64,000 bases of DNA from Candidatus Pyrohabitans jungbluthii (lineage in GTDB: Archaea > Hydrothermarchaeota > Hydrothermarchaeia > Hydrothermarchaeales > BMS3B), in assembly GCA_002010065.2 (NCBI GenBank), contig MTMD02000007.1, positions 13,113 through 77,112 on the forward strand. Direction: 5' to 3'. Every line of letters starts with the position of its first letter. Position 1 is the first letter of the stretch. Below the pieces are notes generated by a model. It ran no database searches, was not told where the DNA came from, and worked only from the letters and a program-made list of their open reading frames with translations. This document shows, in pieces, positions 24,352 through 30,633 of this stretch. Both the position numbers and the translations under genes were made by a program.

Positions 24352-24537
24352 TCAGCAGGAGCTATGCGAGATTGCACCCTCTGGACACGCCTCTACGCAG
24401 GCGCAGCACTCCACGCAGTCGTCGGCGTTCACCACTACGCTCTTGCCGTCGTTCAGCTCATAAACCGACGAGGGGCAGGTGTCAACACAGGTTCCACAGC
24501 CGACGCACTTTGCTTCGTCAACGCTTATGTCTACCAT
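24352..24537 (-). CDS. 2[4Fe-4S] ferredoxin
   Basis: 61 aa. Two complete cluster motifs: CVGCGTCVDTCPS and CVECCACVEACPEG. It is a bacterial-type 2[4Fe-4S] electron carrier. The ATG (MVDISVDEAKC) lies 9 nt after GGAGG and is preferred to a TTG three codons upstream. It stands alone between the sulfur-carrier operon and the divergent single-cluster ferredoxin, near dsrAB, and may supply electrons to sulfite reduction (inference). Confidence 0.95.
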   Translation of the reverse strand: MVDISVDEAKCVGCGTCVDTCPSSVYELNDGKSVVVNADDCVECCACVEACPEGAISHSSC

Positions 24538-24709: not shown

Positions 24710-24916
24710 ATGGCGAACATAGAGGTTGATCTCGACGCGTGTGTGGGTTGTGGCACCTGCGAGTCTCTCTGCCCAAGCACCTTCCAGCTTCAGGACGGCA
24801 AGAGCTACGTGATTGGTGACGGCTCAGACTGCGACCTGGAAGAAGTAGTAAACAGCTGCCCGACCAGCGCAATAACTGTCGAGGGCATAGGTTCTGCTGA
24901 GAGAAAGCAGGTGTAA
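24710..24916 (+). CDS. Single-cluster ferredoxin ([4Fe-4S] or [3Fe-4S])
   Basis: 68 aa. Motif CVGCGTCESLCPSTF plus a distant cysteine in VVNSCPTSAITVEG: a mono-cluster ferredoxin in which the second motif is reduced to one CP. A strong ribosome-binding site, AAAGGAGG, precedes the ATG. It is convergent with dsrAB. Archaeoglobus carries a ferredoxin gene behind its dsr operon, so an electron-donor role for DsrAB is plausible, though this gene is on the opposite strand. Confidence 0.94.
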   Translation: MANIEVDLDACVGCGTCESLCPSTFQLQDGKSYVIGDGSDCDLEEVVNSCPTSAITVEGIGSAERKQV

Positions 24917-26162: not shown

Positions 26163-27332
26163 CTACTCCTCATCCACCTGTACTTCGCCCGGGAAGTAGA
26201 ACCAGAACGGGTTGTTCCTGGGCGCCTTCACCATCGTTGGCAGTGGGTCAAGTCCCACTTCGTGGAGGAACTTGCCAGCGCCTATGCGGTATATGGTTTC
26301 GCCGATTCTCTCCTTCGCTCTGCCGTTCTCATCCCACCAGTCGAGAAGCTTGTACATCAGCTCTTTAAGCTCAGTGTACGGAGGCTCCAGCTTCATGAAG
26401 GGTATCAGCGTCCACGCCAAGAAGGCACCGTAGCGACCTCTCGCACGTCCGCCAACGAGTATCGTGGCACCCCTGTCGTCTCCTGGGGAGAGTGCCTTGG
26501 GCATCTTCTGCAGGCAGTACATGCAGCGCACGCACTCGTCGTTGTTTATCTTGAGCTCATTACCATCCCAGCTCATCGCATTTGTGGGACAGTTTTTAAC
26601 TATGTACTCCACATCCACCTTGCCACTCTTGGCGTAGTTCCTTACTTCCTCCTGATCTATCTTGATGTCATCGCGCCAAGTACCCATTATAACGAAGTCT
26701 GCTCTGGGAACACCTGCAACGCAATCGGTGGGGCAGCCGGAGATCTTCACCTTGAACTTGTACGGGAAGCGCGGGCGGTGCATGTCGTTGAGGATCTCTT
26801 CGTCGGTCATCAGAGTGTGGTATATATCGTTGGTGTCTATGCACGCCATTTCACAGCGCGCGGGGCCGATACAGTTGCTCGCAGTACGGAAGTCGCCAGC
26901 GCTTCCTCCAATGTCCCAGTGCTCCTTCGCTGCCTCGTCGAAGAAGGGTTCAATGTTCTCAGTTGGTATGCCCACAACCTGCAGGTCTCCAGTGGCGCCG
27001 TGGAAGTTCATCAAACCAGAGCCGTACTTGTTCCACAGTTCAACAAGCTTGCGCAGCTTCTTTGTGCTGTAGAACCACCCGGCGGGCTGGATGAACCTTA
27101 TTGTGTGGGCATCTGCGAGGATGTCACGCCTGTCAGAGACCCTGCCAATAACACCAGCGTCGTAGCCGGGAACACCCACCATGCCGCCATGGGTCCAGTG
27201 GGTCATTTTGTCTTCGTAGTTCAGCTCATAGAGCTTGAGCAGCCCAGTGTAGCCCGTCTTTTTAATCTCTTTGACTATACTGGGCCATGGCCCCTTTTCA
27301 AGCTCGTCCAGAAGAGGGGTTTCCGATGCCAC
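26163..27332 (-). CDS. dsrA: DsrA, dissimilatory sulfite reductase alpha subunit
   Basis: 389 aa, slightly shorter than Archaeoglobus DsrA. Siroheme/cluster ligands Cys154, Cys160 (SNCIGPARCEMACIDT) and Cys200/Cys204 (ISGCPTDCVAG). The ferredoxin insert has CVRCMYC plus KNCPTNAMSW. N-terminal HWTHGGMVGVPGYDAGVIGR is highly typical of DsrA. The start is a GTG 10 nt after GGAGGTGA. The TATA is about 75 nt upstream in a region shared with the divergent operon. Together with DsrB it forms the alpha2beta2 sulfite reductase. Whether the enzyme works in the reductive direction cannot be read from sequence alone; archaeal DsrAB usually does. Confidence 0.97.
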   Translation of the reverse strand: MASETPLLDELEKGPWPSIVKEIKKTGYTGLLKLYELNYEDKMTHWTHGGMVGVPGYDAGVIGRVSDRRDILADAHTIRFIQPAGWFYSTKKLRKLVELWNKYGSGLMNFHGATGDLQVVGIPTENIEPFFDEAAKEHWDIGGSAGDFRTASNCIGPARCEMACIDTNDIYHTLMTDEEILNDMHRPRFPYKFKVKISGCPTDCVAGVPRADFVIMGTWRDDIKIDQEEVRNYAKSGKVDVEYIVKNCPTNAMSWDGNELKINNDECVRCMYCLQKMPKALSPGDDRGATILVGGRARGRYGAFLAWTLIPFMKLEPPYTELKELMYKLLDWWDENGRAKERIGETIYRIGAGKFLHEVGLDPLPTMVKAPRNNPFWFYFPGEVQVDEE

Positions 27333-27402
27333 CTCATTTCACCTCCTGCCTTAGTTACAACAAAATCTACCTACGCCTAGCGAATTGAATTAAAGTTTTT
27401 TT

Positions 27403-27415
27403 GGTATATATAATT
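27403..27415. promoter_or_regulatory. Shared divergent TATA region between dsrAB and the GluTR-paralogue operon
   Basis: GGTATATATAATT reads as a TATA box on both strands (AATTATATATACC on the minus strand). It lies about 75 nt before dsrA on one side and about 95 nt before the first gene of the plus-strand operon on the other, so the two operons may share control. Confidence 0.5.
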
Positions 27416-27448
27416 TTTCATTAAAGTGACCAGTCTGTGCAAAGTTGC

Positions 27449-27502
27449 CCACAACCGTGCACAATTTTACCTCGTTAGGCTACGCTGCGCCTATGGTTGT
27501 GG
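27449..27502 (+). promoter_or_regulatory. Structured 5' leader of the operon divergent from dsrAB
   Basis: Outer 8-bp inverted repeat CCACAACC (27449-27456) and GGTTGTGG (27495-27502), enclosing an inner stem TAGGC (27476-27480) / GCCTA (27489-27493). The right arm ends 5 nt before the ATG, where the ribosome-binding site would be, so folding would mask translation initiation. It could be a cis-regulatory RNA element; no known riboswitch class was recognised. Confidence 0.45.
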
Positions 27503-27507
27503 TTTTA

Positions 27508-28049
27508 TGGACAAGGAGGAATTTCTGGAGAGGTTCTACCTCGACGAGGAGGAGAGGCACAAGCGTGCGGAGCGCATAAGCAAGGGGATGGTGCGCTACG
27601 AGCGCAAGAAGAACGCCATTTTCACCTTTAAAGACAGCGTTGCCAAAATCGACCTCTGCGAGGTGTGCAGGCATCCCAAGGGCGTGACCTATACCCTGTG
27701 CGAGGTTGTGCCGAGCTTTGAAAATGTGGACGTTGGCGAGATGCTCGTCGAGGCGAGGGAGAAGGCAGAGGTGTTCTGCAAGAGCGAGGGCACCAGGGGG
27801 CAGTGCATAATCAACATAGTGATACCCCCGGAGCCTAAGATGATTATGGAGCTTGGTGAGCACCTCGACGAGATGACAAAGCTTGGAAACTTCGCTGTTA
27901 CCGTGTACGACACGAAGAGCGGGAAGATGGGAATGCTTGTGATAGATGAGAGCTTCCTTTCAGAGCTGCGCGAGGACCCCGATTACAAGGGGATGAGCGA
28001 CGCCGAGATATTCACGAATTTTATGATGAACTACGCTGAGCTACTATGA
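27508..28049 (+). CDS. Unrecognised protein, first gene of the operon divergent from dsrAB
   Basis: 180 aa from MDKEEFLERFYLDEEERHKR. No family was recognised. Visible features: a charged helical N-terminus, six cysteines (LCEVCRHPKG, TLCEV, VFCKSEG, GQCI) that could bind metal, and a mixed alpha/beta body ending IFTNFMMNYAELL. A longer frame opens upstream but would run through the leader hairpin. The stop overlaps the start of the GluTR paralogue (ATGA), implying translational coupling. The position opposite dsrAB suggests a role in sulfite-reductase maturation or siroheme supply (inference). Confidence 0.8.
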
Positions 28050-29023
28050 CGCTGCTTTGCTTATCTCTGCACCACATAAAAACGAGCTATAAGAACTTCT
28101 CCCGGGTTAGGTTTTCCTCTCCCTCGAGCTTTTATGAGGCCACTCAGAGCTTTGGCGAGCGAGTGTTATTCCAGACTGGCACCAGGGTTGAGGTATACAC
28201 TACTGGCGATTCAACATCTGCGATGCTGAAGGTGCTATCACAACACAGTGGCATCGCAGAGGAGGAACTCTCAAAGCTGTTCATGGTTTACAGTGCCTCC
28301 GACGCAGCGGAGCATCTTTTCAGACTTGCGTGCTGCATTGAGTCTCGCGTGCTGGGCGAAACCTATATCCCCTGGCAGGTGGAGGCGGCGCTTGAGCAAG
28401 CTAAAGCGGCAGGTGCCGCTGGCGAGGTGCTTGAAAAGCTTTTCGGCGCATCGCTGCAGGCAAGCAGGAGGGCAATAGAGGAGACGGGCATAGCCAAAGG
28501 CGACCTCCACATCAGGGCACTGGAGGCGCTTCGTGCAGCGACAGAGCTTAAAGGAAAAAAGGTGCTCCTGTACGGCGCAGGTTTAACCGGCAGAAGGGTT
28601 GCAAAGCTGGCTAAGCAGCATGGCGCAAGCATCGCCGTACTAAACCGCAACTACGACATAGCGCAGCGATGTGCACATGAGATTGGCGCTGAGGCGCTTA
28701 ATTATGAGGAGCGCAATGACGCGCTGAGGGATGCCGACATCCTGGTATGCGCCACTCTCGCCTCGCACTACCGCGTTACCCCGGAGCTTCTCGCTAAGCT
28801 TGAGCGGGAGAAGCGCCTTGTGATTCTTGATGTCTCACCCTTCAGAAACGTCTCGCCAGAGGTGGCGAAGCTTGGCTTTGTCACCCTTGTTAACGGCGGG
28901 GTAGCGAAGGCTGCGGAGGAGAACCTCAAGGCGATGAGGGTAGAGGTTCCCAAAGTGGAGGGGATAGTGGCTGAGGAGCTGGCCAAGCTCAGGGCTGAGC
29001 TTCCTGAGCTTTTTGAGGTGTGA
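28046..29023 (+). CDS. Glutamyl-tRNA reductase (HemA) paralogue lacking the catalytic cysteine
   Basis: 325 aa. It follows the GluTR plan: N-terminal LLCLSLHHIKTSYKNFSRVR aligns with the family's LxxGxxHxxxP start; SDAAEHLFRLACCIESRVLG aligns with the usual HLFxVAxGLxSxVxGE; and a Rossmann motif LLYGAGLTGRRVAKLAKQHG starts near residue 174. Where true GluTR has TCNRxE with the thioester-forming Cys, this protein has TGTRVE (Thr44-Gly45-Thr46-Arg47): the Cys is Gly, though the Arg is kept. The C-terminal dimerisation domain is shortened. It therefore should not make glutamate-1-semialdehyde by the standard mechanism. Location beside dsrAB hints at a siroheme-related dehydrogenase or regulator. 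Confidence 0.8.
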   Translation: MTLLCLSLHHIKTSYKNFSRVRFSSPSSFYEATQSFGERVLFQTGTRVEVYTTGDSTSAMLKVLSQHSGIAEEELSKLFMVYSASDAAEHLFRLACCIESRVLGETYIPWQVEAALEQAKAAGAAGEVLEKLFGASLQASRRAIEETGIAKGDLHIRALEALRAATELKGKKVLLYGAGLTGRRVAKLAKQHGASIAVLNRNYDIAQRCAHEIGAEALNYEERNDALRDADILVCATLASHYRVTPELLAKLEREKRLVILDVSPFRNVSPEVAKLGFVTLVNGGVAKAAEENLKAMRVEVPKVEGIVAEELAKLRAELPELFEV

Positions 29024-29026
29024 ACC

Positions 29027-29224
29027 ATGCCCTACATAGCGCTTGAGCTTGGCGACGAGGATTTGGAGCATGCGAAGCTGGTGCTTGGCGAAGCATGCGA
29101 GAGCTGCGAGGTTAATATAGATGGCAGAGTGGAGAAAGGGATACTGCTGTCAAAGAAGACCCCTAAAAATCTTTACGCCCTCCTCGCGATATACATGCAG
29201 AACCGCGTGGACTGGAGGCGGTGA
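29027..29224 (+). CDS. Small unrecognised protein A of the dsrAB-divergent operon
   Basis: 65 aa, starting MPYIALELGDEDLEHAKLVL and ending YMQNRVDWRR. Three nt after the GluTR paralogue. It has two cysteines in ACESCEV and looks like a small alpha/beta protein. Its N-terminal pattern (Y-I-x-L-E-L-x-D-E) and length resemble the next gene product, so the two may be diverged paralogues forming a heterodimer. Function unknown. Confidence 0.7.
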   Translation: MPYIALELGDEDLEHAKLVLGEACESCEVNIDGRVEKGILLSKKTPKNLYALLAIYMQNRVDWRR

Positions 29225-29225
29225 G

Positions 29226-29423
29226 ATGGGCTACGTGCTCCTCGAAGTCAGCGACGAAGCCTTCGCAGCCATAGAGGCGCTGTTAAAGGGAAGCTTCCGA
29301 AAGCTCAGCGTGGAGTGCTCCTCCTTCAAAGAAGGTGAAGAGGTTCTGGTTTTCGAGGAAAGGCTGAGCTCTGGCGACTACCACCTGCTCCAGTCGATAC
29401 TGGTGCAGGATTTGGAGTGGTAG
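29226..29423 (+). CDS. Small unrecognised protein B of the dsrAB-divergent operon
   Basis: 65 aa, starting MGYVLLEVSDEAFAAIEALL and ending LLQSILVQDLEW. It starts 1 nt after the stop of protein A and has the same length and a similar N-terminal strand (Y-V-x-L-E-V-x-D-E). Predicted alpha/beta fold, cytoplasmic. Last gene of the operon; convergent with the radical SAM gene, whose stop is 1 nt away. Function unknown. Confidence 0.7.
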   Translation: MGYVLLEVSDEAFAAIEALLKGSFRKLSVECSSFKEGEEVLVFEERLSSGDYHLLQSILVQDLEW

Positions 29424-29424
29424 G

Positions 29425-30633
29425 CTAACTCACGCGTCTCGAAAAATTCGTAACCCTCAGCTCATTCAGTATTGCCTCTTTATTCACATCGGGAAGCTCA
29501 ATTCTGCCCGGCACGTAGGCGCAGTAGGGGTCCTCCGCAAGGTAGTCCCCGGTTACAGCGTAAGCGCGAGAGCGCGAGCCCCTGCATATGTCGTTGAACT
29601 CGCACACTCTGCACTTACCCTTAAGCTTCGTTGCGTCGTGGAGCTCTTTCAGCACCTCTGAGCTGGAGTATATCCCTTCCAGCGTATCCTCTCTCACGTT
29701 GCCAAGCGTTACGGGCATGAAGCTGCTCGGGTAAACTTCACCCTTGTGCGCCACGAATATTCCCTTTCCAAACACCTTCTTGTCTTTGGGCTTATAGCCG
29801 CTGCCCTTTACCTCAACCTCAGGAAGCTCAACATCGCGGGTTAGCTGCTCCAGCTTTTGCCTTAGATGCCCGTATAGCGCGCCCTGCATCAGTGCGCTTT
29901 CGTCGAGCATGCCCTCTTCAACCATGCGGCGCATAACCGCAACCCGGCGATAGGGCTCACTCCCTGCGATGGCATTCACGGTGATAAGCGGTAAACGCAT
30001 GACGTCGTAGACGAAGTTGAAGACATCCTCGTACTCCTCCGGCGAAAGCGCAAGCTCTTCCGTCGCTCTGCCTGTGGGGATGAGCATGTACAGGTACCAG
30101 CCTATTGCGCCCAGTCTCTTCGCGAGAAACATAATCTCGGGCAGCTCGCGCACATTGTGCCTGGTAACCGTCGTTAGGAGGCGGAAAGGCAAACGCAGCT
30201 CTCGCATTATCTCCGTAGCTTTAACCAGCCTTTCGAAGGTTCCCGGCACGCCTCTAAAAGCGTCGTGCTGCTCTGGTGTAGCCCCGTCGATGCTTATTGC
30301 CACTGTATCGCAGCCCGCCTCCTTGAGCTTCTCTATGTTCTTCCTGTTCAGCAGGGGCGTGGTGCTGGGCGCTATCGTAACCGTGAGCCCGACGTCTTTG
30401 GCGTAGCGTATTAGGTCAAAGATATCCTCCCGCCTCAAAGCGTTGCCACCGGTGATGCGCAGTATTGGATACGGCTTGCCAAAAGCGACAATCTGGTCAA
30501 TAAAGGCGTAGCTTTCCTCTGTAGTAAGCTCCCGCGGGTCTCGTTCTGTGCGCGCACTCGCCTTGCAGTGCTTGCAGCGCAACCCGCAGGCTATTGTAGA
30601 CTCCCACATCACAGAAACTGGCTTGAGATGCAT
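29425..30633 (-). CDS. Radical SAM/SPASM protein (TIGR04053 / AhbC-AhbD-like)
   Basis: 402 aa from ATG giving MHLKPVSVMWEST. The radical SAM cluster motif is CGLRCKHC (C-x3-C-x2-C), followed by LRITGGNALRREDI and AISIDGATPEQHDAFRGVPG. The SPASM-like C-terminus holds GKCRVCEFNDICRGSRSRAY and DPYCAYVPGR. It is close to the archaeal/bacterial heme-biosynthesis-type radical SAM group (AhbC, AhbD, and the TIGR04053 family). Proximity to dsrAB and the GluTR paralogue makes siroheme or heme modification attractive, but the substrate cannot be read from sequence. An upstream frame extension overlaps the thermosome gene and was not used. Confidence 0.85.
   Translation of the reverse strand: MHLKPVSVMWESTIACGLRCKHCKASARTERDPRELTTEESYAFIDQIVAFGKPYPILRITGGNALRREDIFDLIRYAKDVGLTVTIAPSTTPLLNRKNIEKLKEAGCDTVAISIDGATPEQHDAFRGVPGTFERLVKATEIMRELRLPFRLLTTVTRHNVRELPEIMFLAKRLGAIGWYLYMLIPTGRATEELALSPEEYEDVFNFVYDVMRLPLITVNAIAGSEPYRRVAVMRRMVEEGMLDESALMQGALYGHLRQKLEQLTRDVELPEVEVKGSGYKPKDKKVFGKGIFVAHKGEVYPSSFMPVTLGNVREDTLEGIYSSSEVLKELHDATKLKGKCRVCEFNDICRGSRSRAYAVTGDYLAEDPYCAYVPGRIELPDVNKEAILNELRVTNFSRRVS

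Follow-up and report, generated by a model that had tools for sequence, protein, structure and literature searches.

What does a protein with the fold of glutamyl-tRNA reductase (GluTR), the enzyme that opens haem synthesis, but without the catalytic cysteine of that enzyme, do when its gene stands head to head with dsrAB? The case considered here comes from the deep-sea archaeon Candidatus Pyrohabitans jungbluthii and from the window, i.e. the whole stretch of 64,000 nucleotides that was analysed. Its host genome (G000) comprises 1.99 Mb on 15 contigs and is 99.95% complete; Candidatus Pyrohabitans sp. JdFR-17, of the same phylum Ca. Hydrothermarchaeota, is a public relative whose copy of the protein in question, P0002, is 94% identical. 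The occurrence of dsrAB in this phylum has already been described (PMC6775978, PMC10591310, PMC12948486), and recent papers count this DsrAB group with the early branches of the pathway in archaea (PMC10504309, PMC12948486).

Layout of the locus

The features of the locus, in window coordinates, are as follows.

24710..24916, plus strand: single-cluster 4Fe-4S ferredoxin, 68 aa
25037..26149, minus strand: DsrB (TIGR02066)
26163..27332, minus strand: DsrA (TIGR02064)
27401..27418, between dsrA and P0001: AT-rich TATA-like element TATATATA, kept in all four relatives
27436..27463, near the expected P0001 transcript start: 28-bp dyad TGTGCAAAGTTG-CCCA-CAACCGTGCACA, candidate operator
27507..28049, plus strand: P0001, 180 aa, undescribed family with invariant C51-E52-x-C54-x-H56-P57
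28046..29023, plus strand: P0002, 325 aa, GluTR-fold NADP(H)-type protein without the Cys and without the dimer domain, TGTR replacing TCNR
29027..29224, plus strand: P0003, 65 aa, genus-restricted
29226..29423, plus strand: P0004, 65 aa, likewise genus-restricted; a probable remote paralogue of P0003
29425..30633, minus strand: TIGR04053 radical SAM/SPASM protein, AhbD-like, 413 bits against a cut-off of 395

As the sequence-only reading had proposed, P0001 to P0004 form a packed set divergent from dsrA (27332-26163) and dsrB (26149-25037), with spacings of -4, +3 and +1 bp and an ATGA overlap of P0001 and P0002. Both Dsr subunits pass their NCBIfam cut-offs (478.5 bits against 392.85 for DsrA, 485.6 against 341.5 for DsrB). 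Substitutions relative to the sister genome, counted at codon positions 1/2/3, amount to 17/21/61 in P0001, 12/9/32 in P0002, 2/2/8 in P0003 and 5/1/12 in P0004, and this third-position bias marks all four as real genes. The start of the first gene had been put at a GTG at 27426; it is better placed at 27507, at a methionine common to the orthologues, since the GTG extension is not conserved. Two small ferredoxins, a two-cluster and a one-cluster protein (window 24352-24537 and 24710-24916), adjoin dsrB, and the one-cluster protein is often encoded in the P0002/dsrAB neighbourhood of other genomes, from several families, as well (G002, G006-G008, G010, G014, G044). At the far end, sister genomes carry an FtsX-like permease and a lipoprotein-like CxxCH protein between P0004 and the radical-SAM gene (L045:1676-4054, L046:5339-7791); the window has neither, and the ends of P0004 and the radical-SAM gene lie 1 bp apart.

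Fold and active site of P0002

The AlphaFold model of P0002 (pLDDT 94.2) superimposes on the GluTR structures 5yjl, 4n7r and 1gpj with Z 22-23 over about 313 residues (about 22.5 for 1gpj), while other, unrelated Rossmann proteins follow at about Z 15-16. Sequence profiles agree, with 90 bits for the Pfam domain GlutR_N (PF05201) and 1gpj as best match in hmmsearch (E 2.4e-51), and the protein has the two-domain architecture of GluTR, i.e. domain I and the NADPH-binding domain II. Together with the Rossmann residues G177 and R201, which are kept throughout the family, this confirms the earlier claim that fold and Rossmann site are retained. At the same time, P0002 reaches only 195.5 bits against the curated equivalog TIGR01035, below its cut-off of 209.55, and the C-terminal dimerisation domain is absent, the profile alignment stopping at residue 323 and the structural alignment at residue 327 of the 404-residue 1gpj chain, at the point from which the dimer domain extends in GluTR. 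The VLGE stretch, previously taken for a dimer-forming region, sits within '...SRVLGE...' in catalytic domain I (GE-QI motif). Family members measure about 295-356 aa.

The replacement of TCNR by TGTR was correctly seen and holds for the whole family: at the position of the catalytic cysteine, position 45, all 15 aligned members carry G, N, S or A and never Cys, so that the motif reads TGTR, SGTR, TSTR or TATR. Other GluTR residues are retained, namely T46, R47, S100 and E105 without exception, T or S at position 44, and H90 in 13 of 15 sequences. Here, R47 is the arginine that binds the substrate carboxylate in GluTR, an enzyme in which roles are ascribed to Arg50, His84 and Ser94. In addition, the family has acquired invariant positions of its own (C235, A236, L238, A239, S240, H241, D262, S264, P265, F266 and N268), only A236 and D262 of which also occur in canonical enzymes; they form the motifs CA[TS]LASH and D-x-SPF-x-N. 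Such a residue pattern is to be expected of an active site that has been rebuilt, not of one in decay. C235 and H241, placed where a Rossmann strand ends, would lie near the nicotinamide; the kept Rossmann motif and R201 point to the use of NADP(H), and R47 to a substrate that carries a carboxylate.

With the thioester-forming cysteine and the dimer domain lost, it is most improbable that P0002 makes glutamate semialdehyde in a tRNA-dependent reaction. The statement that it cannot act through a thioester holds for the nucleophile of GluTR; it does not extend to thiol chemistry in general, given the invariant C235. Likewise, the alignment places no cysteine at the GluTR site, but it does reveal this one in the Rossmann domain. 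Whether P0002 could still be a glutamyl-tRNA reductase with C235 as a substitute nucleophile was therefore considered, as C235 is invariant and lies in the NADP domain and as R47, S100 and, mostly, H90 are kept. Canonical enzymes aligned have T or S at this very position, the dimer arm is missing and a canonical hemA exists in the same genome, which makes such an activity hardly credible; as a second true GluTR, P0002 was rejected on the cysteine, the dimer domain and the TIGR01035 score.

Canonical tetrapyrrole genes in the same genome

A canonical hemA elsewhere in the genome, for which a check had been proposed, is indeed present as a 458-aa frame (G000:C8:267262), clustered with hemB and a gene for a SirC-type precorrin-2 dehydrogenase; adjoining genes of 426 and 305 aa are presumed from size and order to be hemL and hemC. 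The SirC-type gene (TIGR01470) scores above cut-off in 19 of the 23 genomes of the phylum, including every P0002-positive one except G022 (81% complete). Since hemA and SirC-type genes are separate from P0002, formation of 5-aminolevulinate and of sirohydrochlorin needs no P0002. This also bears on the idea that the Rossmann domain of P0002 replaces SirC/Met8/CysG as an alternative precorrin-2 dehydrogenase, which its NADP(H)-type fold and its linkage to a siroheme enzyme might recommend. P0002 matches PF13241 (NAD_binding_7) only marginally (24.6 bits, cut-off 22.1) and PF14824 (Sirohm_synth_M) not at all, while the genome's own SirC has both domains; with SirC so widespread, and adjoining hemA in this genome, the idea is very improbable, and a replacement of SirC by P0002 was rejected.

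Distribution of the P0002 family and co-occurrence with DsrAB

The P0002 family comprises 18 members from two phyla and is monophyletic relative to canonical HemA (100/100); some inner branches of the tree are long, leaving the branching order inside the family unsure. Apart from the one in G044, short members were found in none of the other archaea sampled, and a wider spread was rejected after profile searches of 421 more genomes (392 from the phylum to which G028 belongs, 29 from that of G291) returned only canonical-length HemA above threshold, in frames of 422-472 aa. A search of the open PMC subset of the literature turned up no description of the family, which is not proof of absence. 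P0002 appears to found a neofunctionalised family of the GluTR fold.

A search for GluTR copies devoid of the catalytic cysteine had been proposed, together with a test of whether they accompany dsrAB; members of the P0002 family are such copies, and they do accompany it. The DsrAB type of the window occurs in 17 of 24 genomes (16 Hydrothermarchaeota and G044 of another phylum; contig-edge fragments in G003, G004 and G014 included), all 17 of which encode P0002, as compared with one of the seven genomes lacking this type, G019 (88% complete). Fisher's test gives p 5.2e-5, a value that overstates the case, as the genomes are related and the counts not independent. The core gene is consequently not confined to this genome among those with dsrAB. 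In nine genomes (G000, G006, G007, G008, G010, G011, G012, G014, G044), P0002 is divergent from dsrA or at most 5 kb from dsrAB. Support that depends less on lineage comes from the presence of P0002 in a second phylum, from its adjacency to dsrA/dsrB across families (f1, f2, f3, f5, f32) and from the retention of the P0001-P0002 pair in the genus of G003-G005. Within this genus, DsrAB of G005 is 88-92% identical to that of the window, as against only 56% for DsrAB of its congener G004 (L049 vs L051), which suggests replacement by lateral transfer. The P0001-P0002 pair of G005 nevertheless groups with its own genus despite the Pyrohabitans-like DsrAB, and the association is therefore not mere physical linkage.

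An unrelated function of P0002, with accidental proximity to dsrAB, would accord with those genomes that carry the gene away from dsrAB (G001, G002, G020-G022). Against it stand the co-occurrence of P0002 with DsrAB in two phyla and its persistence in G005, where DsrAB appears to have been replaced; a slight chance is left. The linkage has its limits, as other DsrAB types come without a P0002-type protein (G028, G285, G291, G144 and the second type in G015), so that P0002 is not required for DsrAB in general. This second, deep-branching type, about 40-49% identical to the DsrAB of the window, is found in the Hydrothermarchaeota G010 and G015 (L057:8237-10436, L064:4671-6886). G009, a member of the same genus as the window, has no dsrAB, P0001, P0002 or P0004, either because a large segment was deleted or because the assembly has a gap. 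The latter is conceivable because the neighbouring threonine-synthase orthologue is missing too, and for the same reason 'natural loss' in G009 was set aside as decisive evidence.

The radical-SAM neighbour

The protein encoded at 29425-30633 reaches 413.1 bits for TIGR04053, whose cut-off is 395, and 309 bits for the AhbD equivalog TIGR04545, which demands 500. AhbD converts Fe-coproporphyrin III into haem by decarboxylation of propionates (PMC11306076), and a tetrapyrrole theme is likewise plausible for the TIGR04053 protein. Within the phylum it belongs to one clade, from which a second set of proteins, AhbD-like, stands apart (100/100); this second set is widespread and also present in genomes without this DsrAB. 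The TIGR04053 clade, by comparison, includes 11 Hydrothermarchaeota (G000, G001, G005, G006, G007, G008, G010, G014, G019, G020, G021) plus G044, every one of them P0002-positive, and was not found in any of the six genomes that have neither this DsrAB nor P0002. In G000, G006, G007, G012, G014, G019 and G044 no more than a few genes separate the TIGR04053 gene from P0002. The family as such also has matches in control genomes, i.e. outside DsrAB organisms, and may therefore serve ordinary haem synthesis.

Even so, the TIGR04053 gene, which lies just beyond 27403-29423, is better supported as partner of P0002 than is the module of four genes that the sequence-only reading had envisaged. That module was rejected: a wide association with DsrAB is seen for P0002 alone, P0001 being restricted to nine genomes and P0003 and P0004 to one genus. 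A better description is a pair of P0002 and the radical-SAM gene of TIGR04053, which P0001 joins in some of the genomes. Both P0003 and P0004 occur in the four members of the genus that have the locus, and a P0004 profile found no convincing relative beyond the genus in 198 genomes. Their described similarity stands in part. Both have 65 aa, and their end-to-end alignment score was equalled by one of 2000 shuffles (hhalign P 1.5e-4, probability 51%); BLASTP, however, gave no match between the two. The resemblance, weak though end-to-end, would make them remote homologues at best.

P0001 and the intergenic region

P0001 has nine homologues in nine genomes only, all of them P0002-positive, and in eight its gene overlaps or directly abuts P0002, from which a physical pairing of the two proteins is probable. 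By sequence, nothing significant was found in Pfam, NCBIfam or the PDB, so P0001 is treated as a new family. AlphaFold (pLDDT 93.9) predicts for it a core of the order alpha-beta-beta-beta-alpha-beta, which best matches XisH (2inb; Z 12.3, 120 residues, rmsd 2.5), with several other restriction-endonuclease-like proteins and nucleases at about Z 10. A restriction-endonuclease-like fold is thus probable, though not certain, as the Foldseek E is only 1.8e-3. No conserved (D/E)xK of a catalytic D...(D/E)xK is present on the third strand among the nine homologues. Instead, C51-E52-x-C54-x-H56-P57-x-G59 is invariant and lies on the second strand and in the turn that follows. In this fold, the active site normally lies where the CExCxHP stretch is located, and a metal or thiol site in P0001 can reasonably be supposed from the model.

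This Cys/His motif, the divergent pairing with dsrA and the clade-wise association with one DsrAB type would also suit P0002, together with P0001, as an assembly factor of DsrAB, namely a chaperone for siroheme delivery or Fe-S/siroheme insertion without chemistry of its own. Plain delivery offers no evident role for the conserved NADP(H) site, and Pfam/NCBIfam profiles found no homology to a known chaperone, which renders this fairly improbable.

The intergenic region speaks to regulation. The two-way TATA region postulated between the divergent genes is borne out by the TATA-like TATATATA in the dsrA-P0001 stretch, which all four locus-bearing members of the genus share. Between it and P0001, the 28-bp dyad at 27436-27463 is largely conserved in these four, while its flanks have diverged. 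As RNA, the hairpins of dyad and intergenic region are not more stable than those of shuffled sequences, and Rfam gave no match for the region; an RNA element was accordingly rejected, and a DNA operator is the likelier reading of the dyad.

Such a shared bidirectional promoter, the fold of P0001 (best known from DNA-acting proteins) and the loss of a catalytic cysteine from an otherwise kept fold, typical of pseudoenzymes, could mark P0002 as a sensor or regulator. It would bind NADP(H), siroheme/haem or both and would adjust, by way of P0001, either the expression of dsr or the flux through canonical GluTR. But P0002 has no GluTR dimerisation domain, so that a simple heterodimer with HemA is not available; the new invariants C235, H241 and SPF suggest selection for a new active site instead of decay; and no DNA-binding domain was detected with Pfam/NCBIfam profiles. 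A regulatory pseudoenzyme is hence an unlikely explanation, albeit one to be taken seriously.

Proposed role

Preference is given, tentatively and somewhat short of an even chance, to P0002 being a neofunctionalised NADP(H)-dependent enzyme of GluTR fold in a tetrapyrrole step dedicated to DsrAB, i.e. siroheme tailoring or insertion; that it serves the siroheme of DsrAB is suggested by linkage. Siroheme supply, DsrAB maturation and redox sensing, as named in the sequence-only reading, are candidate functions. P0002 would act with NADP(H) on a small molecule bearing a carboxylate, most plausibly siroheme or a siroheme precursor, in a tailoring or insertion step serving this DsrAB. The TIGR04053 protein may act on the same cofactor, and P0001, as direct neighbour, probably binds P0002 and could offer a Cys/His metal site. 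A more far-reaching version, which we consider doubtful, is an undescribed pathway in which thioester-free NADP(H) chemistry by the GluTR-fold enzyme and the TIGR04053 protein tailor siroheme or its precursor, such that DsrAB of Hydrothermarchaeota and the neighbouring lineage would carry a siroheme derivative.

To our knowledge, only a single reaction has so far been associated with the GluTR fold. A lineage without the nucleophile and the dimer arm, yet with a new active-site-like signature, would represent a second use of this fold. Moreover, P0002 is associated with DsrAB, which is central to sulfur cycling, as well as with a radical-SAM protein akin to AhbD, and this points to a step, so far unrecognised, by which the cofactor of DsrAB is made or loaded. 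As the family supplies a clear list of residues and partners, these proposals are testable.

Comparison with known systems

P0001 shares its core arrangement with PD-(D/E)XK proteins such as XisH (2inb), but differs from them in having CExCxHP in place of a conserved (D/E)xK and in the lack of detected sequence similarity. The 29425-30633 protein resembles AhbD and other tetrapyrrole radical-SAM/SPASM enzymes in combining radical SAM and SPASM regions (309 bits for TIGR04545); in contrast to AhbD, it belongs to TIGR04053, in a clade apart from the AhbD-like proteins that the same genomes also encode.

A second clade of GluTR paralogues without the cysteine, 358-359 aa long and with a TASR motif, was noticed in another archaeal family with genomes of about 1.6 Mb (G066, G086, G264), where the genes (L107:5523-6599, L109:5138-6217, L110:4500-5576) stand beside a canonical-length GluTR. 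As in P0002, Cys is replaced at the same position, here by Ala, and the same genome holds a canonical-length GluTR match. These proteins nevertheless form a separate clade (100/100) without LASH or SPF, and dsrAB is not in their neighbourhood; being separate, they indicate that the cysteine of GluTR was probably lost at least twice.

With GluTR itself (HemA/GtrR, e.g. 1gpj from Methanopyrus kandleri), P0002 has in common domains I and II, the NADP-type Rossmann site, the substrate Arg of T-x-x-R, the Ser and the Glu of the GE motif. It differs in being shorter, in lacking the catalytic Cys and the C-terminal dimer domain, in scoring below the TIGR01035 cut-off and in possessing CA[TS]LASH and D-x-SPF-x-N as motifs of its own.
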